Source: Candidatus Poribacteria bacterium
Lineage (GTDB): Bacteria > Abyssobacteria > SURF-5
Assembly (NCBI GenBank): GCA_016215705.1
Contig: JACRIR010000105.1
Location: forward strand, 1-13,150
Length of the DNA stretch: 13,150 nt
Reading direction: 5' to 3'
Below, piece by piece: positions 69 through 12,533 of the stretch. The notes below the pieces were generated by a model. The model was not told the DNA's origin and did not search any database. It saw only the letters and a list, made by a program, of their open reading frames with translations. Numbering within the stretch: position 1 is the stretch's first letter; the number at the start of each line of letters is the position of its first letter. The translations under genes were made by a program, and so were the position numbers.

Positions 69-623
69 TCATGGTTTTCTGGCCAGCAGGTTGCCTTCGC
101 GAACGGCTTTCTTGTTCAGTTCGAGGAGCGATTCGCGGCGCGTGCCCTGGAAGCGTTTTGTGACGGCGCGCTCGAGCATGCCCACTGGAACTGACTCTAC
201 CTTGCCTATGTATGCGCCCAGCAGAACCATGTTTGCCACCTGAAGGTCGCCCAATTCGATCGCCTTCTCGGATGCCGGCACGTGAAAGACCTCGATATCG
301 TTCCGCTCGCCCTTGGCGGAGATGACGGAATCGTCACAGAAAATGATCCCGCCCGGCTTAAGACGCATCTCGAACGTCGTGAATGATGCCGGGTCCATGA
401 CGACCGCATGCGCCGGATTGAAAGTCAACGGGCTCGCTATCGGATTGTCAGAGAATATTACGGTGCATTCGCTCTCGCCACCACGCATCGCCGGCGAGTA
501 GTTGGGGAAATATGAAACGTGCTTAAAAAGCTGCATCCCGGCCTCGGCGAGAATCTGGCCGAGAGTGAGTACCCCCTTGCCGCCGAGTCCGGAGAACGTA
601 ACTTCAAAGTATTTGGGTTGCAT
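69..623 (-). CDS. 2-oxoacid:ferredoxin oxidoreductase, gamma subunit
   Basis: This 184-residue protein is the gamma subunit of a four-subunit 2-oxoacid:acceptor oxidoreductase, which oxidatively decarboxylates a 2-oxoacid to acyl-CoA and passes electrons to ferredoxin in the cytoplasm. The N-terminus has the family's glycine-rich loop, here GLGGKG (residues 12-17), followed by LGQILAEAG. The segment PNYSPAMRGGESECTVIFSD is typical of the family. The length is normal for a stand-alone gamma subunit (about 180-190). The ATG at 623 has GAGG 10 bases upstream. It is the last gene of the operon, 112 bp after the beta subunit. The loop reads GGKG where many homologues have GGQG. Substrate specificity cannot be read from this subunit. 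Confidence 0.92.
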   Translation of the reverse strand: MQPKYFEVTFSGLGGKGVLTLGQILAEAGMQLFKHVSYFPNYSPAMRGGESECTVIFSDNPIASPLTFNPAHAVVMDPASFTTFEMRLKPGGIIFCDDSVISAKGERNDIEVFHVPASEKAIELGDLQVANMVLLGAYIGKVESVPVGMLERAVTKRFQGTRRESLLELNKKAVREGNLLARKP

Positions 624-644
624 TATCGATTTTCCTCGCAGTCA

Positions 645-730
645 GTCAACGGTCAACGGCTTGTGGTCTAAGTAACGATGCCAAGATATCATCATCTGAA
701 CCATAAACCATTAACCATGAACCAGAAACC
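645..730. repeat. Intergenic spacer with short degenerate tandem repeats
   Basis: The 112-bp gap between the beta and gamma genes holds two direct copies of GTCAACG (645-651 and 652-658). At 698-730 there is a run of degenerate ACCATNAACC-like units (ACCATAAACC, ATTAACC, ATGAACC, AGAAACC). I see no gene or clear promoter here. It looks like low-complexity repeat filler between co-oriented operon genes. Confidence 0.45.
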
Positions 731-735
731 CCGCT

Positions 736-1506
736 TCAGTCATATATCGAGTCTATGTTCTTGAATTCGCCGAGTGGGAACTCCTTCAGCATGTGTTCCT
801 GAATGTATGCCACCGAATCGACTGGCGACATGCCCCAGACCGACGGGCAAGCAGAAATGAACTCGACGAAGCTGTAGCCCGCGCCACTCATCTGTTTCTG
901 GAAAGCAGTCGTGAGGACTCGTTTCGCTTTCTTGAAATTCCCGGGTGTATGAACGGTCACGCGGGCGGAGTAAGCGACCGCCTTGTGATACGCCGCCAGT
1001 TCCGCGCCGTGGAACGGAAAGCCGTCTTCCCGCCGCCGCCCCTGCTGGGTGGTTGTCGTCTTCATACCCGTGAGCGTCGTGGGCGCAAGCTGACCGCCTG
1101 TCTGGCCATAGCCGGCATTGTTAAGAAAGATTGTGGTCAGATTCTCGTTTCTCAATACCGCGCTGAGGAAGCATCCGAGGCCGATTGCGCCGAGGTCGCC
1201 GTCGCCCTGGAGTGTGAACACGAGCGCGTCGGGATGAATCCGCTTGGCGGCGCTCGCCATCGCGGGAGCGCGTCCGTGCGGACATGAGGCCCAGTCGATG
1301 CCTATCGAGATCGGCGCTCCGCCGAAGCTGCAGCCGACACCCGCAAAACCGATGGCTTTTCCCCCGAGTTTCAACTCCTCGAGAACTTCGCAGATGACGC
1401 GCGTGATGATGCCATAGTGACAGCCGGGGCAGTACAGACTCGGAAAACCGGTCCTAAGTTCCGGCTTGCCACAGACCAACACCTTCTTCTGTTCGCTTGT
1501 GCTCAT
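736..1506 (-). CDS. 2-oxoacid:ferredoxin oxidoreductase, beta subunit (TPP-binding)
   Basis: This 256-residue subunit binds thiamine pyrophosphate and carries the catalytic centre of the oxidoreductase. Visible motifs are the N-terminal CPGC (26-29), HGRAP (77-81), and the TPP/Mg signature GDGDLGAIG (101-109) ending at the NN of residues 129-130. GYGQTGGQLAPTT and the MKTTTTQQGRR segment follow, as in VorA/KorB-type beta subunits. The length fits the family (about 250-290). The motif reads CPGCHYG where most relatives have CPGCGHG, so the histidine is shifted by one position. The ATG at 1506 has GGAG upstream at a longer than usual distance. The gene lies 378 bp after the alpha gene, and that gap is filled by an inverted-repeat element. 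Family assignment is firm; the exact 2-oxoacid is inferred from the alpha subunit. Confidence 0.93.
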   Translation of the reverse strand: MSTSEQKKVLVCGKPELRTGFPSLYCPGCHYGIITRVICEVLEELKLGGKAIGFAGVGCSFGGAPISIGIDWASCPHGRAPAMASAAKRIHPDALVFTLQGDGDLGAIGLGCFLSAVLRNENLTTIFLNNAGYGQTGGQLAPTTLTGMKTTTTQQGRRREDGFPFHGAELAAYHKAVAYSARVTVHTPGNFKKAKRVLTTAFQKQMSGAGYSFVEFISACPSVWGMSPVDSVAYIQEHMLKEFPLGEFKNIDSIYD

Positions 1507-1568
1507 AATATTTTTCCCATCTCCGTATGATTCGTGATTTACGGTTACTGCTGTCCAAAACAGCTCTT

Positions 1569-1877
1569 TTCACCGCAAAGGCGCAAAGAACGCAAAGAGA
1601 AATCTTATACGCCCTGTTGCCCAAATAGAATTGAGCTTCACAGTGCTGTTAGGGTTGTCATTCTGAGGAGCGAAGCGACGAAGAATCTCTCGTTTTCTCG
1701 TAGATTTGCGACCTATAGACAGAGATTCTTCGCTTCGCTCAGAATGACAAACGGCTATTACCATTTGGGCAACACGCCGTATAGTCCAAACACCACCCGT
1801 TGAATACCTTCCTTCAAAAGCTCGACATTCATTCTTTGCGCTCTTTGCGCCTCGGGTCTGAGACCCTTTGCGGTGAA
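1569..1877. repeat. Three-layer nested inverted-repeat element between alpha and beta genes
   Basis: Almost the whole alpha-beta gap is a nest of inverted repeats. The outer layer is TTCACCGCAAAGGCGCAAAG and its continuation (1569-1599), facing its inverse at 1834-1877. The right copy is interrupted by the small palindrome GGGTCTGAGACCC (1854-1866). The middle layer is TATACGCCCTGTTGCCCAAAT (1606-1626 and neighbours) facing ATTTGGGCAACACGCCGTATA (1763-1783). The inner layer is GTCATTCTGAG...GAAGAATCTCT (1655-1690) facing AGAGATTCTT...AGAATGACAAAC (1721-1751). The element ends 7 bp from the alpha stop codon. No coding potential was recognised. It looks like a non-autonomous miniature element, or several nested ones, and would form a long hairpin in the operon mRNA. 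Confidence 0.75.
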
Positions 1878-1884
1878 GACGGCC

Positions 1885-2961
1885 TTACAGGAGCCGCCTG
1901 ATTTCCTCGAAGACGCGCTCGGGGAAGATGAGGCCGTTGGGCTGGTCGCTATTGCGCGCCCACAGACCCAAGTAGTGCACGGGCACTTGCGCCCGGACCG
2001 CGAGGTCGACGTCCTCCTTCATCTGCCCGTTGCTGTCCTCGACGCAGAGCACCTGCTTCGCTTTCAAGGCGGCTTCGCGGAGCGCGGCCTCGGGATACGG
2101 CCAGAGGGTTATGGGTCGGAACAGGCCGACCTTCATGCCTTCGGCCCGCGCCATCTCTATCGCTTTGGCGCACGTGCGCGCAGTCGAGCCGTAAGAAACC
2201 AGAAGCAGTTCTGCGTCGTCGGTATGCGTGGCCTCGTAACGCACCTCATTCTCCTCGATTCGTTTGAACTTCTTGAGGAGCGCCTCGTGCCACGATATGA
2301 CGCCGCCGTAATTCAGCCATCCGACAGTGTGCATGTAGCGCAGGCCGTCCTTCTTATCCGTCCCCTTGAGCGCCCAGAACTTGTCGGGCAGTTCCTCGAA
2401 GGTAAGCTCTTTGAGCTCGACCGCCTCTGCCATCTGGCCAAGAACATAGTCCGAAAGCACAAAACATAGAATGCGGTACTTGTCGGCCAGATGAAATGCA
2501 AGTTGCATCTGCTCGTAAATCTCCTGGCCGGACCACGGCGCGAGCACAATGCAATGATAGCCGCCCTGACCGCCGCCTTTGACCACCATTCTATAGTCGG
2601 TCTGGCCCGCCTGGCCGCCTGTGCCTATGCCCGGGCTCATTCGGGACACATTAACCACGACGCAGGGCGCCTCGATTTCCGCCGTATATGAGATGCCCTC
2701 CTGCATGAGAGCCAGGCCGGGACTCGAGGTGGACGTCATCACTCGAGCGCCCGCAAGTGCGCCCCCATAGACCATGTAGATCGAGGAGACTTCGCTCTCG
2801 GACTGGACAAATACGCCTCCGACCTTCGGCATTTCGCGAGACATGAACTCAGGGATATCATTCTGTGGCGTGATCGGATAACCAAAGAAATACCTGCACC
2901 CGCCGGCGATCGCGCCTCGAGCGACTGCCTCGTTGCCGGTCATGAACATTCTGTCTGCCAT
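1885..2961 (-). CDS. vorB: 2-oxoacid:ferredoxin oxidoreductase, alpha subunit (VorB-type)
   Basis: This 358-residue subunit holds the pyrimidine-binding domain that pairs with the beta subunit to bind TPP, plus the C-terminal domain II. The N-terminus GNEAVARGAIAGGCRYFFGYPITPQN (9-34) and the block TSTSSPGLALMQEGISYTAE (76-95) are signatures of this family. The wording of these blocks and DYVLGQMAEAVEL is closest to subunits annotated as 3-methyl-2-oxobutanoate:ferredoxin oxidoreductase VorB. The length matches (about 350). The start at 2961 lies 6 bp after the ferredoxin stop codon, so the two are cotranscribed. The best functional guess is oxidation of branched-chain 2-oxoacids from amino-acid breakdown, or the reductive reverse reaction. 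2-oxoglutarate remains an alternative, because family wording does not prove the substrate. Confidence 0.92.
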   Translation of the reverse strand: MADRMFMTGNEAVARGAIAGGCRYFFGYPITPQNDIPEFMSREMPKVGGVFVQSESEVSSIYMVYGGALAGARVMTSTSSPGLALMQEGISYTAEIEAPCVVVNVSRMSPGIGTGGQAGQTDYRMVVKGGGQGGYHCIVLAPWSGQEIYEQMQLAFHLADKYRILCFVLSDYVLGQMAEAVELKELTFEELPDKFWALKGTDKKDGLRYMHTVGWLNYGGVISWHEALLKKFKRIEENEVRYEATHTDDAELLLVSYGSTARTCAKAIEMARAEGMKVGLFRPITLWPYPEAALREAALKAKQVLCVEDSNGQMKEDVDLAVRAQVPVHYLGLWARNSDQPNGLIFPERVFEEIRRLL

Positions 2962-2967
2962 GTTGTC

Positions 2968-3198
2968 TCACTCGCTTTCATCTATGAATTTGTACACCTC
3001 GATTGCGAAATCGGGGCACATATTGCCGCAAGTTCCGCAAGCGACGCATTCCTCGGGATTGATAAACTCCGGAAGGAGCGCACCCGAGCGCGTGAATTTG
3101 TCCCTGGATATCTGAATGCATCCTTTCGGGCAATACTCGACACACAAGGCGCAGCCCTTGCACGTGTCATCAAGGATTATTATCTCACCTTTTGTCAT
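2968..3198 (-). CDS. 2-oxoacid:ferredoxin oxidoreductase, delta subunit (2x[4Fe-4S] ferredoxin)
   Basis: This 76-residue protein has two complete CxxCxxCxxxCP clusters (Cys 13, 16, 19, 23 and Cys 51, 54, 57, 61), each binding a [4Fe-4S] centre. An extra cysteine sits at residue 27. It carries electrons from the alpha/beta catalytic core to soluble ferredoxin. It is the first gene of the operon and sits 6 bp before the alpha gene. That position and order (delta, alpha, beta, gamma) match four-subunit Kor/Vor operons. The ATG at 3198 has a GGAG Shine-Dalgarno site 7 bases upstream. I could not find a convincing -10/-35 pair; the upstream region is occupied by a repeat element from 3248. Confidence 0.93.
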   Translation of the reverse strand: MTKGEIIILDDTCKGCALCVEYCPKGCIQISRDKFTRSGALLPEFINPEECVACGTCGNMCPDFAIEVYKFIDESE

Positions 3199-3247
3199 GT
3201 GATTCTCCGTTCCTTGTTAAGATCTACACGATAACGAACTCGTACTA

Positions 3248-3580
3248 ACCGCAAAGGCGCAAAGGACGCAAAGCAATCTTTCGCAACGACATTTCCCTCA
3301 CCACGCATTGTTGGTAATCGGCTTCGACAAGCTCGGGCCTCAAGTGTCTGTACGACTCAGTATCAATTTCTTGAAGTCTTACCGTGATTTCTTTTTGCAA
3401 GGGCGGTTCGCGAACCACCCCTACAAAATGCCGGTACTCCTACAGTAGACTTCCGCTCTTGCTGGACTGAAAAAGAAGAGGCTATTATTCGCATAATTCG
3501 TCTCGCGCCTTGCGCGATTCGCGACATTCGTGATCCCGGAGTTTCTTCTTTCGGCTTCGTATTTGCGCCCTTGCGGTGAA
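3248..3580. repeat. Composite repeat region upstream of the oxidoreductase operon
   Basis: The 390-bp gap between the ferredoxin and dehydrogenase genes contains no recognisable gene. It is bounded by ACCGCAAAGGCGCAAAGGAC (from 3248) and the inverted TTTGCGCCCTTGCGGTGAA (3562-3580), the same outer module as at 1569-1877. Inside are GCTTCGACAAGCTCGG (3321-3336), a 20-bp palindrome with one mismatched pair (3401-3420), and a CGCG-rich stretch with ATTCGCGACATTCGTG (about 3519-3534). The palindrome tail CCCCTAC...ATGCCG (3418-3433) repeats the tail at 33-55. The layout suggests a mosaic of short dispersed elements, with the later ones landing inside the earlier one. Confidence 0.65.
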
Positions 3581-3588
3581 ACCCCCTT

Positions 3589-4554
3589 TTAGAAGTTCAC
3601 ACAAAACTCGGGCTTGTCGCCGCGGGCGACCCTCTTGATCGCCTTTGCAACCTGGGCAAAATTGCGCGCTCTCGACTCGAACGTGGACGTGGCCACGTGC
3701 GGCGTGAGCACGACGTTATCCAGTTTGAGAAACCTGTCATCGAGACTAATCGGCTCCTCCCAAAACACATCGAGGCCGGCCCCCGCAATCTTGCGCTCCT
3801 TGAGTGCGCGCAGAAGACCATCCCGTTCCACGAGTCCGGCGCGGGCGATATTTATGAAATAAGCCGTCTCCTTCATTTTGCAAATTTGTTCGTAGCCTAT
3901 CATGGAGCGGGTCTCGTCATTGAGAGGGCAGTGGAGCGACACGAAGTCGCTCTCGGTCAGTATCTTATCAAGTTGGTCTATGCCCGCGAGGAAATCGACG
4001 TCAGGGCTATGAATGTGGTCGTGGTACTTGTCGACGGCGAGTATCTTCATCTCGAAGTTCCTGGCGCGCCTCGCGGTTTCCTTGCCGCTGTGACCGAGGC
4101 CGACGAGCCCGAGCGTCTTGCCATCCAGTTCCGCGCCGAGTGGCAGAAAAAAGATGCCCTTGCGAAGGTTTTCCTGTGCCTCATTAAGTCTGCGAGAGAG
4201 CAATATCATGAGGGCAATGGTCAACTCGCCCATCGACGCAGCGCTTCCGTATGGAACGTTTGCCACGTAAACGCCGCGCCGCGTCGCCGCCTCGACGTCA
4301 ACTCCGTCGAGCCCGACTCCCGCCTGGATTATCAACTTCAGCTTGGGAGCGGCATTGATGACCTCGGCGTCTATCTTCGATACGGCCGGTATTATGACTT
4401 CGGCGTCCGAAACCTGTTCTGAAAGGGGGACCGTGTCATCCATTGAAGCCAGTTCAACCGGAAAATCACCCAACTCCTCAAAAAAGGCGAGAAGCGGGTT
4501 GCCGCCGGCGTTTGTTGCCGCAACTTTGGGAGATACAGCGATAAAGACTTTCAT
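3589..4554 (-). CDS. D-isomer-specific 2-hydroxyacid dehydrogenase (NAD-dependent)
   Basis: This 321-residue cytoplasmic oxidoreductase of the phosphoglycerate/D-lactate dehydrogenase superfamily interconverts a D-2-hydroxyacid and a 2-oxoacid with NAD. The Rossmann loop is GLGHSG (152-157). An aspartate at the end of the next strand (ILAVDKY, Asp175) favours NAD over NADP. The catalytic triad is visible as Arg238 (NIARAG), Glu267 (WEEP) and His286 (TPHVA). The start at 4554 is chosen because AGGAGGT lies about 9 bases upstream. The frame stays open to a TTG at 4671, but that codon is part of the -35 box of this gene's own promoter. There is no ACT domain, so it is not a full-length SerA of the long type. 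The substrate is unknown. It is transcribed alone and stops just after the repeat region at 3248-3580. Confidence 0.9.
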   Translation of the reverse strand: MKVFIAVSPKVAATNAGGNPLLAFFEELGDFPVELASMDDTVPLSEQVSDAEVIIPAVSKIDAEVINAAPKLKLIIQAGVGLDGVDVEAATRRGVYVANVPYGSAASMGELTIALMILLSRRLNEAQENLRKGIFFLPLGAELDGKTLGLVGLGHSGKETARRARNFEMKILAVDKYHDHIHSPDVDFLAGIDQLDKILTESDFVSLHCPLNDETRSMIGYEQICKMKETAYFINIARAGLVERDGLLRALKERKIAGAGLDVFWEEPISLDDRFLKLDNVVLTPHVATSTFESRARNFAQVAKAIKRVARGDKPEFCVNF

Positions 4555-5069: not shown

Positions 5070-7478
5070 ATGACGGAAACAAGTTCACGCGTCACCAGGA
5101 AACGGCAGAAAGCCGCTGTTGTTGCGTGGCTTCTTTTTGTGATTCTGCCGGTTTTCTCTTGGAACCGCGCGTACTCGTATGCAGCGCAAGACATATGGCC
5201 CTCTTCGGAAGAGGACTCCCGTCTGAGCATTGTTTTCGTAATCGACGTCTCGACAAGCATGTACGACATTCTTGATGGGCTGAAGGAGGCCCTGAAGGAG
5301 TACGTGAGAGAATTAAGGACGGGCGACTCGATTGCAATAGTGACCTTTGGTAAATATTCTAAGCTCCACTATCGAACCACAATAAGAGCAAGTTCCGACG
5401 TCGAGAAGCTGCTGGAATTCTGCGATGCGCTCTCATGTCCGGATGAATACACATACATTCCGCACGGGCTTAATACGGGCGTGAGAGAATTATATCGGTT
5501 CTTCCAGGAGAATCCGAACGGCCGACACATGCTCGTCGTGATGAGCGACGGACGCAATAATCCTCCGAAAGATATTGATGAGAAGTCCGTTGTAACTTAT
5601 GATGGGATAAAGAATAAGTTCTTCTCCAAGTTCGAGCCGGGAGACAACTGGTACATCAGCTACGTCGCCCTGAGAGGCGCTTCGGACCTGGAGTTGGCCG
5701 ATTTCGTTCAAACGGAATGCCATGGGAATAAAATAGAACTACACCTCGACCAGTTGCGCGGAAAAACCGGCGCGCCCCCGCTCATATGCGAAGCCAGAAT
5801 TCAACTGGGCGCCAACGTCCGTGTGGGGTCCGACAGGATCATCAATTTCGGAAGCGCGTGCGTCCCGATAAAAGTCGATATTCCCTTATTGATAACTCCA
5901 CTCAGAGGAAAGCCGGAAGGACAGCCCATCAAGATAAACCCGATTTTGACCGATGCTCTTGCTACCAGCAAGCTTACGGCCAAGGTGACTCCTTCAGAGA
6001 TAGTATGCGGAGCGACTCCCACAAAAGCATCGGTCGCATTCTCAATAAACGGAGAGTGGGAAGAGGAAATCAACGGGTCATTATTGCTGGAGCCCGTCGG
6101 TCATACGATCTTCATTGTTCATCCGCTGCAACTCCTGTTCAAGTTCGAGAAGCCGCCGAAAATCAACGTCGGCAGATACAATACTGCTGTCAAAGGCTCG
6201 CCATGGGAAGAAATAGACCGACTCACTTTGGGGCCGCTCAAGCCGGGAGGAAAAGTCGAAGAGAAACTTGTGCTGAGGCTGGATGGCGGCGTTCCATCCG
6301 AGGGAATGGAAATACAAACGACTCCTGATATCAAGTTGCCGGAAGGTATTGTTTGCACATCGTCTGCCGAACTGAAATTGAACAGATTACTCGGGAGTGA
6401 GGCGGTTATCTCGATCTCCGCCGAGGCGAATGAAGGCTCCAGTTTGCCGATTGGCTGGAAAGTCGATGGCAACCTGGTGCTGAAAAGCCCCGGCGGGGTT
6501 GCGAAATTCTTTCCCAACCCGATACCCATAAGGGTATTCACTTCAGAGGCGGGAGAGAACTCCGGTTGGGCGGCGGGGAAAGGCGCTCCCTCGCGAGAGT
6601 TGCGCCCATGGGAATGGACAAAGCAGAACTCGAGATTGATCCTGTTCGGCATCACTCTTCCGGCATTGTTTGGCGGCTCGATAATGTTCTTTGGAATAGC
6701 GCGATGGAAAGCATACATGAACAGATTCCTTCCTCTTGAGGGTTGGCTCATGGTAGTTGAAAAACCGCAAGGAATGAACTTGAAAAACATAGAGCTCAAG
6801 CCCCTGAGCGAAAGACTGAAGAAGTCGAAGCTTATTTTTGGCAGCGAGCCTTTCTCTGACATCGCCATTCCACACAAATCGGTTGACAAGCAGCACGCCC
6901 AGGTTCGGTCGGGGCGCGAAGGGACGCCGGCCCCGGTCTACATAAGAAGCCTGGGCATGAACGACGTCAACGTCAACGGCGCCGTCATTGATGAAGAAGT
7001 AAAGCTCGGGGACAGGGATATTATCAAAATCGGAGACGTTCAGTTCGTTTATTCCAATTCTCCCCTGAAACAGGTTGTCGTGCACTACAAGGACGGCGAT
7101 GTAAGGTACGGGATTCCTTTGACGTGGAACATAGAGGAAGACGGCTTCCTGCTAAGGCCGGAAGGCAAAGGGGCAACAGAACTTCAAATGTATATTCCTT
7201 TCAAAGACCTGAAAGCGGTTTTCTTCGTCAAGAGCTTCGACAAGGAGATCGCGAAAAAAATAGATTGGTCCAGCATCTATGCAAAGAAGGACCACCTCAT
7301 CGTCGAGTTTCTCGACGGCGAGGAATTGGACGGATACACGATCCAGGATTACAATCCGAATGCTTCTCGATTCTTTGTCGTGCCAGGGACTGAATCCGGA
7401 AAGGAAGAAAACAACATTTGCGTTCTGGTGGAGCGATTGTTTACGAGAAAGATCAAAGTGGTTAGCAAACAGACGTGA
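5070..7478 (+). CDS. Membrane protein with von Willebrand A, transmembrane and FHA domains
   Basis: This 802-residue protein starts with an uncleaved anchor or signal segment (residues about 15-38). A vWA domain follows (about 51-235) with the metal-binding MIDAS motif DVSTS (Asp59, Ser61, Ser63) and MSDG (Asp160). Residues 240-500 are a beta-rich stretch I cannot assign. A transmembrane helix lies at about 522-543. An FHA-like domain spans about 588-665 (SDIAIPHKSVDKQHAQV...NVNG). The C-terminus (about 668-800) contains FVKSFD and VEFLDGEELDGYTIQDYNP and resembles small domains that accompany PilZ or FHA proteins, but I cannot name it firmly. The likely topology is vWA outside the cytoplasmic membrane and FHA inside, fitting a signalling or adhesion role. 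FHA residues that usually contact phosphothreonine look altered: GS for the usual GR, and Asp606 for Ser. GGAGG lies 7 bases before the ATG. The gene stands alone on its strand. Confidence 0.85.
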   Translation: MTETSSRVTRKRQKAAVVAWLLFVILPVFSWNRAYSYAAQDIWPSSEEDSRLSIVFVIDVSTSMYDILDGLKEALKEYVRELRTGDSIAIVTFGKYSKLHYRTTIRASSDVEKLLEFCDALSCPDEYTYIPHGLNTGVRELYRFFQENPNGRHMLVVMSDGRNNPPKDIDEKSVVTYDGIKNKFFSKFEPGDNWYISYVALRGASDLELADFVQTECHGNKIELHLDQLRGKTGAPPLICEARIQLGANVRVGSDRIINFGSACVPIKVDIPLLITPLRGKPEGQPIKINPILTDALATSKLTAKVTPSEIVCGATPTKASVAFSINGEWEEEINGSLLLEPVGHTIFIVHPLQLLFKFEKPPKINVGRYNTAVKGSPWEEIDRLTLGPLKPGGKVEEKLVLRLDGGVPSEGMEIQTTPDIKLPEGIVCTSSAELKLNRLLGSEAVISISAEANEGSSLPIGWKVDGNLVLKSPGGVAKFFPNPIPIRVFTSEAGENSGWAAGKGAPSRELRPWEWTKQNSRLILFGITLPALFGGSIMFFGIARWKAYMNRFLPLEGWLMVVEKPQGMNLKNIELKPLSERLKKSKLIFGSEPFSDIAIPHKSVDKQHAQVRSGREGTPAPVYIRSLGMNDVNVNGAVIDEEVKLGDRDIIKIGDVQFVYSNSPLKQVVVHYKDGDVRYGIPLTWNIEEDGFLLRPEGKGATELQMYIPFKDLKAVFFVKSFDKEIAKKIDWSSIYAKKDHLIVEFLDGEELDGYTIQDYNPNASRFFVVPGTESGKEENNICVLVERLFTRKIKVVSKQT

Positions 7479-7599: not shown

Positions 7600-9060
7600 T
7601 CATTGCTTTTCCGGCACTGCCGCCGTCGCCGGCTCCTTTGCCTTCCGGAATTTCTCCAATTGGCCCTGATAGTATTGCATGTCATCGGGCTTCTTGGCTA
7701 TCGCCTCTTTTATGATCGCAATCGCAAGATCATAGTCCCCGTGAGCATAGTATGCCTCGGCCAGGGTATCAATATACCATGGATGCGGTTGCAACTCGAC
7801 CGCCTGATTAGCGTGTTTTATGGCAGCCTCGGGATCCAAGATGTCGTGGCTCTTCGAGGTGGCCATAAGCCATGCGATCTCGTTATGAGCGCCGGCGGGT
7901 TCGATAGCCACGACTTTTTCAAATGTTTTCATGAGTTCGTCACGCCGGTCGTTTTTCTCGTAGAGCTCCATGAGCCGGAAATACGACATTTCATAGCGTG
8001 GCTCGAGGTCAATGGCTTTCCGGTATTCAGCCTCAGCCGAGGCGTCATCTCCGGTTTGTTGGCGTAAATCACCCAGCGCGCCATGTGGGGCAGGTGAACC
8101 AGGGCGGAGTGTGGCCGCTTGCTGGAACTGTGCGGCCGCCCGCTCATTTTCGCCTGCTTTCATATAAGACTTCCCCATCCCCATTCGGGCCTCGAAGCTC
8201 TCCGGATCAATCTCAAGAACTGATGAGAAGTTTTCGATCGCAGCCGTTGTGTCTCCTTTATCGAATGAATCGTCGGCCCTCCTTAAAAGGATTGCTGTTT
8301 TGACCCGTTGCGCTTCGCGGTTTTGCGGATCTATCTGCAGGGCGGCAGTGGCTGCGGCGTCAGCGGCATCAAGCTTCCTCTGCCTCAGATAGCAATACCC
8401 GAAGAACGCCAGCACGTCCGGATTGCCGGGTGTCGCGCCGGCTGCCTTCTGAGCCGTTTCGATCGCCGCTTTGATCTCGTTCGCATCGAGAAGATTGCGC
8501 GCCTGTTTCAGCAAAAGCTCGCTATCATCCGGTTTCTGCTTAAGTTGTTCGGCCAGTGCCCTCATGGTTCCGCGGTTGGCCTTAATGTCCTTGATCCACT
8601 CGAGCATGAAATCGGCGTCGCGATAACCGGCTTTCCTGTCGATTTCGGTCTCATCCGGTCCCAGAACAACAAGCATGGGGAACGTCTGCACCTTCAAGCG
8701 CCGCACCAATTGAAGCTCGACGTCGCCATCGACCCCGACGGGGATAAAATCTCTCAGAGCACGAAGCACGTCCGGATCAGTGAAAGTCCATTTCTCCATC
8801 ATGTCGCAGGGCTCGCACGAATCTCGGTTGAAAAAGAGGAACAGTTTCCGGCTTGGATGTCCCGCCGACGCGCGAAGCACTTCGTAATATCTGAGCCATT
8901 CGATTTGAGATGTTCTCGCTTCGTCCGGGAGACGGTCGAACTCACCCGAGGGAGTAATTCCGGCGGCGCTCAGCCTGCTGCCCGCGCAACCGGCTGCCGC
9001 GAGCGGAATCACGCAAAATGTGAAGATACGCAAGACGCAAGCAAGAATCCCGATTCTCAT
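7600..9060 (-). CDS. Lipoprotein with thioredoxin-like domain and TPR repeats
   Basis: This 486-residue protein begins with a lipoprotein signal peptide whose lipobox is LAAAGC, giving a lipidated Cys25. Ala follows the cysteine, which would allow sorting to an outer membrane. A thioredoxin-like domain spans about 68-160, with the redox pair CEPC (82-85) after FLFFNRD and a cis-proline at 128 (QTFPML). From about 170 to 470 there are some seven or eight tetratricopeptide repeats (for example AAIENFSSVLEIDPES and ASAEAEYRKAIDLEPR), which usually mediate protein contacts. The start at 9060 is chosen because it overlaps the peptidase stop by 4 bp (ATGA), has GGAG 8 bases upstream and begins a proper signal peptide. 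The frame remains open upstream to 9504, but only over the peptidase gene. It is the last gene of its operon. A role as a cell-surface assembly or redox factor is inference. Confidence 0.85.
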   Translation of the reverse strand: MRIGILACVLRIFTFCVIPLAAAGCAGSRLSAAGITPSGEFDRLPDEARTSQIEWLRYYEVLRASAGHPSRKLFLFFNRDSCEPCDMMEKWTFTDPDVLRALRDFIPVGVDGDVELQLVRRLKVQTFPMLVVLGPDETEIDRKAGYRDADFMLEWIKDIKANRGTMRALAEQLKQKPDDSELLLKQARNLLDANEIKAAIETAQKAAGATPGNPDVLAFFGYCYLRQRKLDAADAAATAALQIDPQNREAQRVKTAILLRRADDSFDKGDTTAAIENFSSVLEIDPESFEARMGMGKSYMKAGENERAAAQFQQAATLRPGSPAPHGALGDLRQQTGDDASAEAEYRKAIDLEPRYEMSYFRLMELYEKNDRRDELMKTFEKVVAIEPAGAHNEIAWLMATSKSHDILDPEAAIKHANQAVELQPHPWYIDTLAEAYYAHGDYDLAIAIIKEAIAKKPDDMQYYQGQLEKFRKAKEPATAAVPEKQ

Positions 9061-10808
9061 TGGTTCAACTCCGAGCCGGTGGGCAGGTTGGTTTTGGTCA
9101 GGGACTTCTGCAGAAGGCGGACTCCTATGGTCAACGCCGCCGCCGTTATCAATACGGCCTGCGGCGAAAAAAACCGATATCCGGCCCCCGTCAGCAAATA
9201 CCAGAAGATATAGGGACCCAGCGATAGCTTTGCCGCGAACATCACGAGCATGAGCGCAAGTGGCGCGGCGGCGGCCAGTGCCAGAACGACGTTCAGCGCG
9301 CGTCGAAGCAGCCCGGCGTCGCCTTCCATCCAAACCCATAACAGCGCGGCAGGCGCCAGGAACAGGCTTGCAGCAAACCCATTGAGCGCAAGGGCAATTA
9401 TTGAGACGGTGAGCAACGTATCCAGGCATACTGCCTTGGCGCTGGCAAAATCCGGTCTTCCCCACAAAGACAGGAACCGGCGCGCAACCGATACGACTAT
9501 CCATCCTCCGATGAGTTCGGCTGCCAGGATGGCGGCGGCTCGAGTATTCGGGTTCTTCAGAAACGGGTCGAGCGTGGTGGCTGGATACAATTCATATCGC
9601 GGAATGAAATCCGTCCATACCATATAATAGAGGGTGACAAGCGCTGCCACCCACGGCAAGAAAAAGAGGCCCATGTTGGTGACTTCGGCGAGAACGTCGC
9701 TCATGAATTTCCGGCGAAATCTAACGTTATAGTATTGAAAGCCGGTGACCAGGAGGAGAGGCAGGAACAGGAACGCCTGGAGTGTGATCGTGCCGGCGTG
9801 GCCTACATACGTTCGCTTGCCCGTCCTGAGATAGTAAGAATTGTTATCCATCGAATAGTCGAGCGCGTCGATCGAATGAATCATAAGCTCGGCGGTCCTG
9901 CCAAGAACTTCAAAGAGACCGGGATTCAGGTTCTCTATTGTGTCGAAAGGCGTATGGTACACCTTCTGGGCCAGCGGACTGTCCGAATGGTCCCCTCCAA
10001 TATTGATGCCCGGGATTCCTGCGCGAAGGAAAGGCCCCTGGTCGGTGCTCGAAATGTTGACAGCTTGCGCCAGATAATGCGAAAGCGGGTCGGGAGACCC
10101 GGGCTCGCCACCCGCTCGCGTGGCGCAGTCTTCCGCCAGCATCCAAAGCCAGAGCGGAGCATATCCGCGGAATTGTCCTTCGCCGCGAATGCAAACTTTC
10201 TCGGGGTTCTCGAGTCTCACGTAGTCGAGCGATATGACCGCGCGGATGCGTTTCAGGCCCGGATATTCCTTCGCAAAATGGCGCGCGCCCAGCATCCCCC
10301 ACTCTTCGCCGTCGGACGCGATAAAGATGAGGGTCTTCTTTTGTTCCTCATGCGAGAAAACGCGGGCGAGTTCGAGCAGCACGCCGACGCCGCTCGCGTC
10401 ATCCATTGCGCCTTCACGCACGTGATAGGGAATGTCGTAATGCGCGATAAGGGCTACCGCGTCCTCGCGGATTCCTTCGTCGACCCCGATGACATTGCGG
10501 CCTCCGACCCGTCGGCCTGCGATCCATGCTTCAAACTCTTGTTGCTCCGTGCGCAAGCCCGCGCGTTTCATTTCCGCTTCTATCCATTTTGCGGCGCCCC
10601 TGCTTCCTTCAGTGCCCGTTCCTCTCTCGGGATACTGCGTTACCAGATTCTTTGTGGCCTCATATGCGTTCGAGGGGGAGAACGAAAGTTTCGTTTCCGG
10701 AACCCGCACTTTTTCGGCCTGATTGCCGGTAGTTCTCAGAATAAGAGTTGCAAGCAGGAAAACGAGCGCAGTGCTGATTGCGAGGATGGAACGTTGGAGA
10801 TCGGTCAT
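9057..10808 (-). CDS. M28-family zinc metallopeptidase with C-terminal membrane domain
   Basis: This 583-residue protein has an N-terminal membrane anchor (about 7-25), an M28 aminopeptidase domain (about 45-315) and a C-terminal region with about six hydrophobic helices (about 340-572). The co-catalytic zinc site is complete: His123 (AHYD), bridging Asp136 (GAMDDASG), general base Glu168 with ligand Glu169 (DGEEWG), Asp195 (SLDYV) and His285 (YHTPFDT). The peptidase domain most likely faces the outside of the cytoplasmic membrane. An M28 domain followed by a helix bundle recalls eukaryotic ERMP1-type proteins, though homology of the helix part is not shown. The ATG at 10808 is 12 bp after the dehydratase stop and has no clear Shine-Dalgarno site, so translation may be coupled. 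The stop overlaps the start of the lipoprotein gene. The substrate is unknown. Confidence 0.92.
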   Translation of the reverse strand: MTDLQRSILAISTALVFLLATLILRTTGNQAEKVRVPETKLSFSPSNAYEATKNLVTQYPERGTGTEGSRGAAKWIEAEMKRAGLRTEQQEFEAWIAGRRVGGRNVIGVDEGIREDAVALIAHYDIPYHVREGAMDDASGVGVLLELARVFSHEEQKKTLIFIASDGEEWGMLGARHFAKEYPGLKRIRAVISLDYVRLENPEKVCIRGEGQFRGYAPLWLWMLAEDCATRAGGEPGSPDPLSHYLAQAVNISSTDQGPFLRAGIPGINIGGDHSDSPLAQKVYHTPFDTIENLNPGLFEVLGRTAELMIHSIDALDYSMDNNSYYLRTGKRTYVGHAGTITLQAFLFLPLLLVTGFQYYNVRFRRKFMSDVLAEVTNMGLFFLPWVAALVTLYYMVWTDFIPRYELYPATTLDPFLKNPNTRAAAILAAELIGGWIVVSVARRFLSLWGRPDFASAKAVCLDTLLTVSIIALALNGFAASLFLAPAALLWVWMEGDAGLLRRALNVVLALAAAAPLALMLVMFAAKLSLGPYIFWYLLTGAGYRFFSPQAVLITAAALTIGVRLLQKSLTKTNLPTGSELNQ

Positions 10809-10820
10809 AAGGTTTCGTCG

Positions 10821-12533
10821 CTAGAGAATTCGCCTAACCATCGCTCCTTCATCGAACTGTGTAGCGAGCAGTCGCCAATCAACAAGAATGCCCGATGTAA
10901 CGCGCGAAGGCGGCGGCTGCCACCGCTCAAGCCGCTGCCGTATCTCCTCCTCCGGGACCTCGAGCCGGACCTCGCGGTCAGGGATACTTATCGAGACGAA
11001 ATCACCGTCGCAAACGGCGGCAAGCGGGCCGCCAACCTGCGCCTCGGGAGTGATGTAGCCGACATATAGAGCGCCCACGGTTGCGCCCGAGAAACGACTG
11101 TCGGTAATCACGGCTACATCGTGAACGCCGAGGGCTTCCAGGAGTAAAACGACCTGAAAATTATCGGAAAATCCGGGCGCTCCGCGAGGCCCTTCATAAC
11201 GAATGACGACAGCCGTTCCTGACTCGACCTCTCCGGACAAGACTCCGAGAATAGCCGCCTGCTGGGTGTCGTAGCATTTACAGGGTCCGCGAAACGTTTG
11301 CCTTTCGTCACCGGCTACCGTGTAACGGGAGAGAGAGCCGCGAGGCGCCAGATTCCCTCTGAGCACAACTATCCCGCCGTGAGGCGACAAACACTTATCA
11401 AGGGGGCGAATAACGTCTTCGTCGAGAATCTTCGTCTCTTCGAGAATCCTTGCGACGCTCTTGCCGGCCACTGTGGGCCGGTCAACCGCCACGCGATCCT
11501 GCAGCCGCTTCAGCGCCGCAAAGGGTCCACCTGCCCGGTGCAAGTCAACCATAGTATGCGGTCCGCTCGGGCGAATCGGGCAGAAGTACGGCGTCTGGTC
11601 GCTGATTTCGGCGAAGGTGTCGATTGTAACGTTCAGGCCGAGGGTTTTTGCCAGGCTCAGCAGATGGAGTATTCCATTGGTTCCGGCCGACGTGGCCATG
11701 ATAAGCCTGGCGGCGTCGGCGATAGAACTCTCCGTAACGTAATCGGAAAACTTTGAGCCTTCGCGCACAAGTCGCACGATTGCCTCGCCGGCTTCCTTTG
11801 CTTTCCGCAGCCGTTCGATATCCGGCCCCGGAATCGTGGAGGAACCGGGAAGGCACAAGCCCATGACCTCCGTAGCCATTTGAACCGTGTTCGCGGTGGT
11901 CAGCTCGGGACATGCGCCGCAGGACATGAGCCATTTGCTCTCCATCCCGTGAATCGTTTTCTTGAATTCTTCCTCGCTCATCGAACCGGCAAGAACTTCA
12001 TTGACGCAACGCAGGATCACGTCGGTCGGGAAGACGGTGGGTTCTCCCCTGAATTCTCCGGGATATGCCGGTCCGCCTGTCACGAAAATCGTCGGCAAAT
12101 CAAGGCGGGCGGCGGCAAGCCACAGGCCGGGGATGCTCTTGTCGCACGTCCCTATGCAAACGAGGCCGCCGGCGCCGTAGTTGCGCATCTGAACCTCGAC
12201 CGAATCGGCTATGGCATCGCGTTGGGGCAGGTCGTAGAGCATGGTCAGGTCATTGATTCCACGGTTCTGACAGTAACCGCCGCAGGGGCCGATGGTATTG
12301 AATTCTATGGGGGTCCCGCCTGCCAGATATATGCCTGCCTTCACGGCTTCGGCCACTTGTTTGAGATGCATGTGGCCGACGCCCGCGTCCTGTACGGTGT
12401 TGGCGATTACAATGAGTGGGCGGCCCAGCTCCGCGTCGGTGAAGCCGCTGGCTTTATAGAAGAAGCGATGTGTTTGCAGCCCCGCAAGAAGTCCAAGCGC
12501 ACGGGAGGCTTGTTCGGGCGACAGTTTTTTCAT
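10821..12533 (-). CDS. IlvD/Edd-family dehydratase, divergent dihydroxy-acid dehydratase homologue
   Basis: This 570-residue protein belongs to the iron-sulfur dehydratases that remove water from dihydroxy acids or sugar acids. Family blocks are IEFNTIG (76-82), CDKSIPG (130-136, with Lys132 the likely carbamylated residue), SCGACPELTTANT (204-216), GNLAPRGS (393-400), VVIRYEGPRGAPG (442-454) and SRFSGATVG (479-487, Ser482 the likely base). The cluster cysteines 130 and 208 are kept. Aligned by eye to E. coli IlvD, Mg ligand Asp81 becomes Gly85 and Glu491 becomes Asp457. The usual DGIAMGHxGM region is replaced by CGGYCQNRGINDLTML with extra residues. Branched-chain amino acid synthesis is therefore possible but not assured, and I leave the symbol blank. 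The ATG at 12533 with AAGG upstream is preferred over a TTG at 12566. It is the first gene of a three-gene operon. Confidence 0.88.
   Translation of the reverse strand: MKKLSPEQASRALGLLAGLQTHRFFYKASGFTDAELGRPLIVIANTVQDAGVGHMHLKQVAEAVKAGIYLAGGTPIEFNTIGPCGGYCQNRGINDLTMLYDLPQRDAIADSVEVQMRNYGAGGLVCIGTCDKSIPGLWLAAARLDLPTIFVTGGPAYPGEFRGEPTVFPTDVILRCVNEVLAGSMSEEEFKKTIHGMESKWLMSCGACPELTTANTVQMATEVMGLCLPGSSTIPGPDIERLRKAKEAGEAIVRLVREGSKFSDYVTESSIADAARLIMATSAGTNGILHLLSLAKTLGLNVTIDTFAEISDQTPYFCPIRPSGPHTMVDLHRAGGPFAALKRLQDRVAVDRPTVAGKSVARILEETKILDEDVIRPLDKCLSPHGGIVVLRGNLAPRGSLSRYTVAGDERQTFRGPCKCYDTQQAAILGVLSGEVESGTAVVIRYEGPRGAPGFSDNFQVVLLLEALGVHDVAVITDSRFSGATVGALYVGYITPEAQVGGPLAAVCDGDFVSISIPDREVRLEVPEEEIRQRLERWQPPPSRVTSGILVDWRLLATQFDEGAMVRRIL

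Follow-up and report, generated by a model that had tools for sequence, protein, structure and literature searches.

The IlvD-like gene and its surroundings

The window, by which we mean the whole stretch of 13,150 nucleotides that was analysed, carries a gene for an IlvD/Edd-type protein, followed by a gene for a membrane peptidase.

10821..12533, minus strand: IlvD/Edd-family dehydratase homologue of 570 amino acids (P0001), recognised by its open reading frame, both Pfam domains and a structure model
9057..10808, minus strand: M28-peptidase membrane protein, 12 bases downstream of the IlvD-like gene and in the same order in G001, a genome of another genus of the same family

The open reading frame check of the window gave exact limits for the IlvD-like gene, which starts with ATG at 12533, stops at 10821 on the minus strand and encodes 570 residues; this start codon is supported because the orthologues begin at the same place. 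The two genes are probably co-transcribed; we claim no functional link between them.

Both superfamily domains are present at full length, ILVD_EDD_N (PF00920) with 300 bits and ILV_EDD_C (PF24877) with 174 bits. The first PROSITE motif of the IlvD/Edd superfamily, C-D-K-x(2)-P-[GA]-x(3)-[GA] as stated in PMC5770437, is found as CDKSIPGLWLA at residues 130-140. The second, around T-D-[GA]-R-x-S, is not matched: the segment reads AVITDSRFSGAT, where Val475 and Ser479 break the strict pattern despite the retention of the catalytic Asp, Arg and Ser. This mismatch does not exclude membership, because the C. crescentus enzyme XyDHT breaks the motif too (PMC5770437). The comparison with a solved dihydroxy-acid dehydratase (DHAD) proposed in an earlier note on this DNA gave a full-length match. 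An AlphaFold2 model with a pLDDT of 91, in which residues 81-100 are among the weakest (pLDDT 66-68), is closest to the M. tuberculosis DHAD 6ovt (Z 49.7, rmsd 2.0 Å over 536 residues), tied with a plant DHAD and L-arabinonate dehydratase. Against holo DHADs and sugar-acid dehydratases together, Z ranges from 47 to 50 and TM from 0.85 to 0.90, with an rmsd of about 2 Å over about 535 residues. By its domains, fold and first motif, the gene product is a member of the IlvD/Edd superfamily.

It is also outside every named enzyme family tested, with scores that fall short of the curated cut-offs of all NCBIfam IlvD/Edd models. The best models are ilvD models, with 507 and 485 bits; the dihydroxy-acid dehydratase equivalog TIGR00110 gives 485 bits against a cut-off of 618, and likewise 485 bits for the orthologues L008 and L009. 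The models for L-arabinonate dehydratase (NF009559, 369 bits against 882; the protein has Gly53 and a C-terminal Leu), 6-phosphogluconate dehydratase (TIGR01196, 171 against 708) and YjhG/YagF (TIGR03432, 152 against 808) are not reached either. Because the best-scoring models are ilvD models, automatic annotation would probably name the gene ilvD and mistakenly place it in branched-chain amino acid synthesis.

The window and G001 share the order of neighbours: the M28 peptidase, a TPR/thioredoxin protein, then a 2-hydroxyacid dehydrogenase, a ferredoxin and a 2-oxoacid:ferredoxin oxidoreductase. In the window, an operon at 69-4554 encodes a D-2-hydroxyacid dehydrogenase, a small ferredoxin (2968-3198) and the alpha, beta and gamma subunits of the oxidoreductase; alpha falls above the cut-off of the VorB subfamily, while beta and gamma are far below every named equivalog. 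An intergenic dispersed repeat adjoining the oxidoreductase operon, at 1560-1800, has 66 matches in the same genome, some two dozen of which exceed 130 bases at 78-91% identity. It is partly palindromic, and both strands of some copies match. On the opposite strand, a gene for a VWA-FHA-DUF6982 protein (5070-7478, plus strand) lies between the TPR and hydroxyacid dehydrogenase genes; since these are adjacent in G001, it was inserted or lost between the sister genera. A glycyl radical enzyme of the PFL2-3 subfamily, below every specific equivalog cut-off, is encoded near the orthologous gene in G001 (L041 822-3260, minus strand).

A lost metal ligand among retained catalytic residues

Residues were mapped by aligning the protein with MAFFT to three E. 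coli enzymes, IlvD, Edd and YjhG, and to the R. leguminosarum L-arabinonate dehydratase. E. coli IlvD residues D81, E491, C122, D123, K124, C195 and S517 correspond to G85, D457, C130, D131, K132, C208 and S482 of the window protein. Conservation was counted in the nine members of its clade and in 70 other IlvD/Edd proteins, 69 of which have a residue at position 85. The following codons, all on the minus strand, bear on the active site.

12282..12284: Cys84, a cluster-cysteine position of the Cys-Asp-Gly type, aligning with the Cys of the CDG motif (PMC5770437)
12279..12281: Gly85, the lost Mg ligand (E. coli Asp81, R. leguminosarum Glu91); Gly/Ala in 9/9 of the clade, Asp/Glu in 69/69 elsewhere
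12261..12272: four-residue insertion (residues 88-91) beginning with Cys88; a gap in all homologues outside the clade
12231..12233: Asp101, a clade-specific invariant acid; Ser in most other homologues
12138..12146: Cys130-Asp131-Lys132, the cluster Cys, Mg ligand and carbamylated-Lys position, all retained in the alignment
11910..11912: Cys208, a cluster cysteine retained in the alignment
11904..11906: Glu210, between cluster Cys208 and Thr213, a candidate replacement ligand; Glu in 9/9 of the clade
11715..11717: Asp273, a clade-invariant acid; Asn in all 69 other homologues
11325..11327: Arg403; Lys in 68/69 other homologues
11163..11165: Asp457, equivalent to the Mg ligand Glu491; Asp solely in this genome
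11088..11090: Ser482, the catalytic base position, retained in the alignment

The four Mg ligands have been described as fully conserved in the family and the Mg site as universal (PMC5770437), and the ligands are conserved in all DHADs compared (PMC9543379). E. coli Asp81 aligns with R. leguminosarum Glu91, whose counterpart in the xylonate enzyme, Glu92, binds Mg together with three other protein ligands (PMC5770437). At this position the clade has Gly (seven of nine) or Ala (two), against Asp (68) or Glu (one) in the 69 other homologues. The replacement of this ligand by Gly had been proposed from an alignment by eye; a proper alignment does not recover the Asp, and the claim emerges stronger than it was made. 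The site of four protein ligands that marks the superfamily is incomplete, with Gly85 at position 81 and the other three conserved in type. Published variants underline the importance of the ligand: Ala at this place (alignment position 138) cost three enzymes virtually all activity, and changes there abolished or lowered activity, none of them shifting substrate preference (PMC9314677).

The second substitution that the earlier note had singled out, Glu491 to Asp457, is confirmed by the alignment and carries little weight. It is a conservative change private to the window genome, the other eight orthologues keeping Glu, and was rejected as a functionally defining feature. The same note had seen the CDGIAMGH.GM segment replaced by a longer cysteine-containing stretch. 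The replacement, CGGYCQNRGINDLTM, is real and longer by four residues, but Cys84 is not the novelty it seemed. It occupies the usual cluster position of the CDG motif, is Cys in 49 of the 69 other homologues, and has a counterpart in 6-phosphogluconate dehydratase that has been proposed to bind the cluster there (PMC5770437). Cys88, considered as an essential new cluster ligand, was rejected since the orthologue of G016 (L009) has Ala there.

The catalytic residues themselves are retained. The cluster cysteines and the carbamylated lysine were rightly reported as kept (C122 to C130, C195 to C208, K124 to K132), and Ser482, Arg480, Cys130/Asp131/Lys132, Cys208 and Thr213 are invariant across the clade. 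At the position of the N-terminal cluster Cys of [2Fe-2S] members (E. coli position 49) stands Gly53, as in the E. coli-type [4Fe-4S] enzymes; Gly as opposed to Cys at this site is a marker of the [4Fe-4S] subgroup (PMC9543379). Because Cys84 lies at the Cys-Asp-Gly position and Gly53 replaces the N-terminal Cys, the protein would most likely carry a [4Fe-4S] cluster with Cys84, Cys130 and Cys208 as its ligands.

Other residues are peculiar to the clade. Asp101, Glu210 and Asp273 are invariant in it and never acidic among the other homologues, position 210 being mostly Gly elsewhere. The recognition-helix residues are altered to an invariant RFFY.AS, and all nine usable sequences have in common TIGPC[GA]GY, the four-residue insertion, YDLPQR and GACPE. 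The Thr equivalent to Thr213 hydrogen-bonds the Mg-bound water in the xylonate enzyme (PMC5770437), and since Glu210 lies between it and cluster Cys208, this glutamate is the first candidate for a substitute Mg ligand.

Set against characterised enzymes, the clade protein resembles E. coli IlvD, a [4Fe-4S] DHAD of the TIGR00110 type, in its fold, the Gly at the [2Fe-2S] Cys position, Cys-Asp-Lys, the C-terminal-side cluster Cys and the catalytic Ser, but differs from such enzymes by the missing Asp81 ligand, the insertion, Glu210/Asp101/Asp273, a location outside the ilv operon, a score below cut-off and an identity of 34-40%. With Edd it shares the Cys of Cys-Asp-Gly, Cys-Asp-Lys and the Ser base, whereas the Asp of that motif is Gly and the family score remains far off. 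The [2Fe-2S] L-arabinonate/D-xylonate dehydratases (R. leguminosarum 5J84, C. crescentus 5OYN) have the same fold (Z about 49) and three of the four Mg ligands in common with it, unlike the N-terminal cluster Cys, the Glu91/92 ligand and the C-terminal His, which the clade protein does not have. It likewise shares a CDG-type cluster Cys and the superfamily domains with the YjhG/YagF D-xylonate dehydratase, whose Asp ligand is lost in the clade protein and whose model score is also far from reached.

A constrained clade beside canonical ilvD genes

Orthologues were found in three phyla. The copy of G001 is 80% identical to the window protein; six of the nine genomes of a second phylum (G022, G041, G042, G045, G046 and G047) have copies 61-64% identical and a seventh, G043, a C-terminal fragment only; G016, the only genome of a third phylum in the comparison, has a copy 50-52% identical. 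A profile search of 386 diverse genomes gave no further clade members at E 1e-160, and a scan of genome contigs with the single protein as query gave zero matches. A DNA pattern for NTIGPCGGY, which would miss Ala85 members, hit four contigs of public MAGs, all from genomes already reached. A description of the clade was not found in the open-licence literature.

The placement in a tree suggested by the earlier note gave these proteins a fully supported clade of their own (100/100), whose stem measures 1.2 changes per site. The canonical IlvDs from these genomes fall elsewhere in the tree, together with E. coli IlvD. The sister of the clade is weakly placed (85/60), and long branches carry the Edd, YjhG and arabinonate sequences. 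Between clade pairs with estimable dS, within the phylum of G022, dN/dS is 0.04-0.06, and we conclude from this that the gene is a working gene under strong purifying selection. This small branch of the IlvD/Edd superfamily is strongly conserved and has to date come from three bacterial phyla, all of them poorly sampled.

A separate, canonical ilvD was found. The window genome, a draft MAG of 270 contigs, has four other intact IlvD/Edd genes and one fragment; L001 reaches 757 bits, over the ilvD cut-off of 618, and lies in an ilvD-ilvB-ilvN-leuC cluster. G016 carries ilvD-ilvB-ilvN-ilvC with leu genes, G022 carries ilvD-ilvB-ilvC, and in G042, G046 and G047 the canonical ilvD is 4-5 kb from ilvC. 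In all genomes examined (G000, G016, G022, G042, G046 and G047), the clade gene stands away from these loci as a second paralogue. IlvD/Edd paralogues are numerous in G000, G001 and G002, with five to eight per genome (L001-L004, L071, L072, L083, L084, L093-L096), and one of them lies about 4-13 kb from a gene of the HpaB type (4-hydroxybutyryl-CoA dehydratase family) in each (G000:C49, G001:C14, G002:C48).

The neighbours of the clade gene differ between lineages. A branched-chain transaminase gene is found close upstream in G001. In G022, G041, G042 and G043, which represent one family, a 4-hydroxybutyryl-CoA dehydratase homologue (1u8v, E 1e-204) adjoins it. The gene order in this phylum (L042 4198-11377, L027 8022-14135) is clade gene, 4-hydroxybutyryl-CoA dehydratase homologue, histidine kinase and sigma-54 response regulator; in G041 an extra gene, patatin-like by eye, separates the first two. 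Neither neighbour set occurs beside the clade gene in G046 and G047, whose genomes give no match over cut-off for 4-hydroxybutyryl-CoA dehydratase; this enzyme was therefore rejected as an obligatory partner. No neighbourhood common to the clade and naming a substrate or pathway was found in the loci compared, and with such differing neighbours the context does not name the substrate.

Proposed function of the clade protein

Either something makes good the missing ligand carboxylate or the protein carries out different chemistry. We put at about one in two the probability that the clade protein dehydrates an acid other than dihydroxyisovalerate by means of a [4Fe-4S]-type cluster and a rebuilt Mg site, in which Glu210 most likely takes the place of the lost carboxylate. 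Its substrate would be a 2,3-dihydroxy carboxylic acid, and the family's iron-sulfur dehydration is argued from the retained Ser482 base, Cys-Asp-Lys and cluster cysteines. An oxygen-sensitive cluster held by Cys84, Cys130 and Cys208 would offer a free iron to take the leaving 3-OH. Ser482 would remove the C2 proton, the 3-OH would be lost to the cluster iron and tautomerisation would yield the 2-oxo acid. Mg would be bound by Asp131, carbamylated Lys132 and Asp457 (Glu in the relatives), and Glu210 on the Cys208 loop, or as second choice Asp101, may make up for the carboxylate lost at position 85.

A different acid, already suspected in the earlier note, is plausible given the separate deep clade, the changed recognition helix and the canonical IlvD that would handle dihydroxyisovalerate. 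Set against this are the lack of a substrate-naming neighbourhood and the published changes at the ligand, which affected activity and not specificity (PMC9314677). The transaminase of G001 and the VorB-like alpha subunit of the window would fit a branched-chain role, and it is precisely at residues 81-100 that the structure model has its lowest confidence.

The transaminase and the VorB-like subunit count for a second DHAD for dihydroxyisovalerate and dihydroxymethylvalerate, an unlikely but serious competitor, in which three protein ligands would bind Mg along with water or a substitute acid, and divergence would reflect a redundant isoenzyme or adaptation. The top scores still belong to ilvD models, and the C-terminal His of sugar-acid dehydratases is absent; but each genome examined has a canonical ilvD with branched-chain genes, none of which adjoin the clade gene in the phylum of G022 or in G016. 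The very long stem common to three phyla and the strict new residues are also unlike drift, and Ala at the lost ligand abolishes dihydroxyisovalerate activity in tested DHADs (PMC9314677). Slightly less likely is a Mg site truly lost or occupied by another metal, with a different reaction (another lyase, isomerisation, hydration) or a non-catalytic role. The disappearance of an otherwise universal ligand, Asn273 to Asp and Lys403 to Arg at nearly invariant positions, the insertion within the active-site loop and the dead Ala variants of relatives (PMC9314677) speak for it. A metal-free or non-catalytic protein would, however, not need the three other Mg ligands, including the carbamylated-Lys position, and the catalytic Ser, which are all kept under strong selection.

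Although the fold is as near to L-arabinonate and D-xylonate dehydratase as to DHAD, a dehydratase of sugar acids (pentonate, hexonate or threonate) is improbable: the score is far under the L-arabinonate dehydratase cut-off, the N-terminal cluster Cys, C-terminal His and Glu ligand are missing, and no sugar genes were recognised nearby in the annotated loci. A frameshift, chimera or annotation error might be feared in a draft MAG of so many contigs, yet it is barely credible, as independent orthologues from other assemblies and phyla have the same features. A sequencing slip or chance at position 85 was rejected on the 9/9 against 69/69 contrast and the low dN/dS.

With this ligand lost, the metal site of these proteins, and probably their substrate, differ from those of known IlvD/Edd enzymes. 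Tentatively, and at somewhat less than even odds, they may form an undescribed IlvD/Edd class kept in candidate phyla, with a Mg site rebuilt or abandoned, and acting on something other than the known dihydroxy and sugar acids. A natural clade under strong constraint that has lost the universal ligand shows either a way of rebuilding the metal site with a different carboxylate or a scaffold open to other chemistry.
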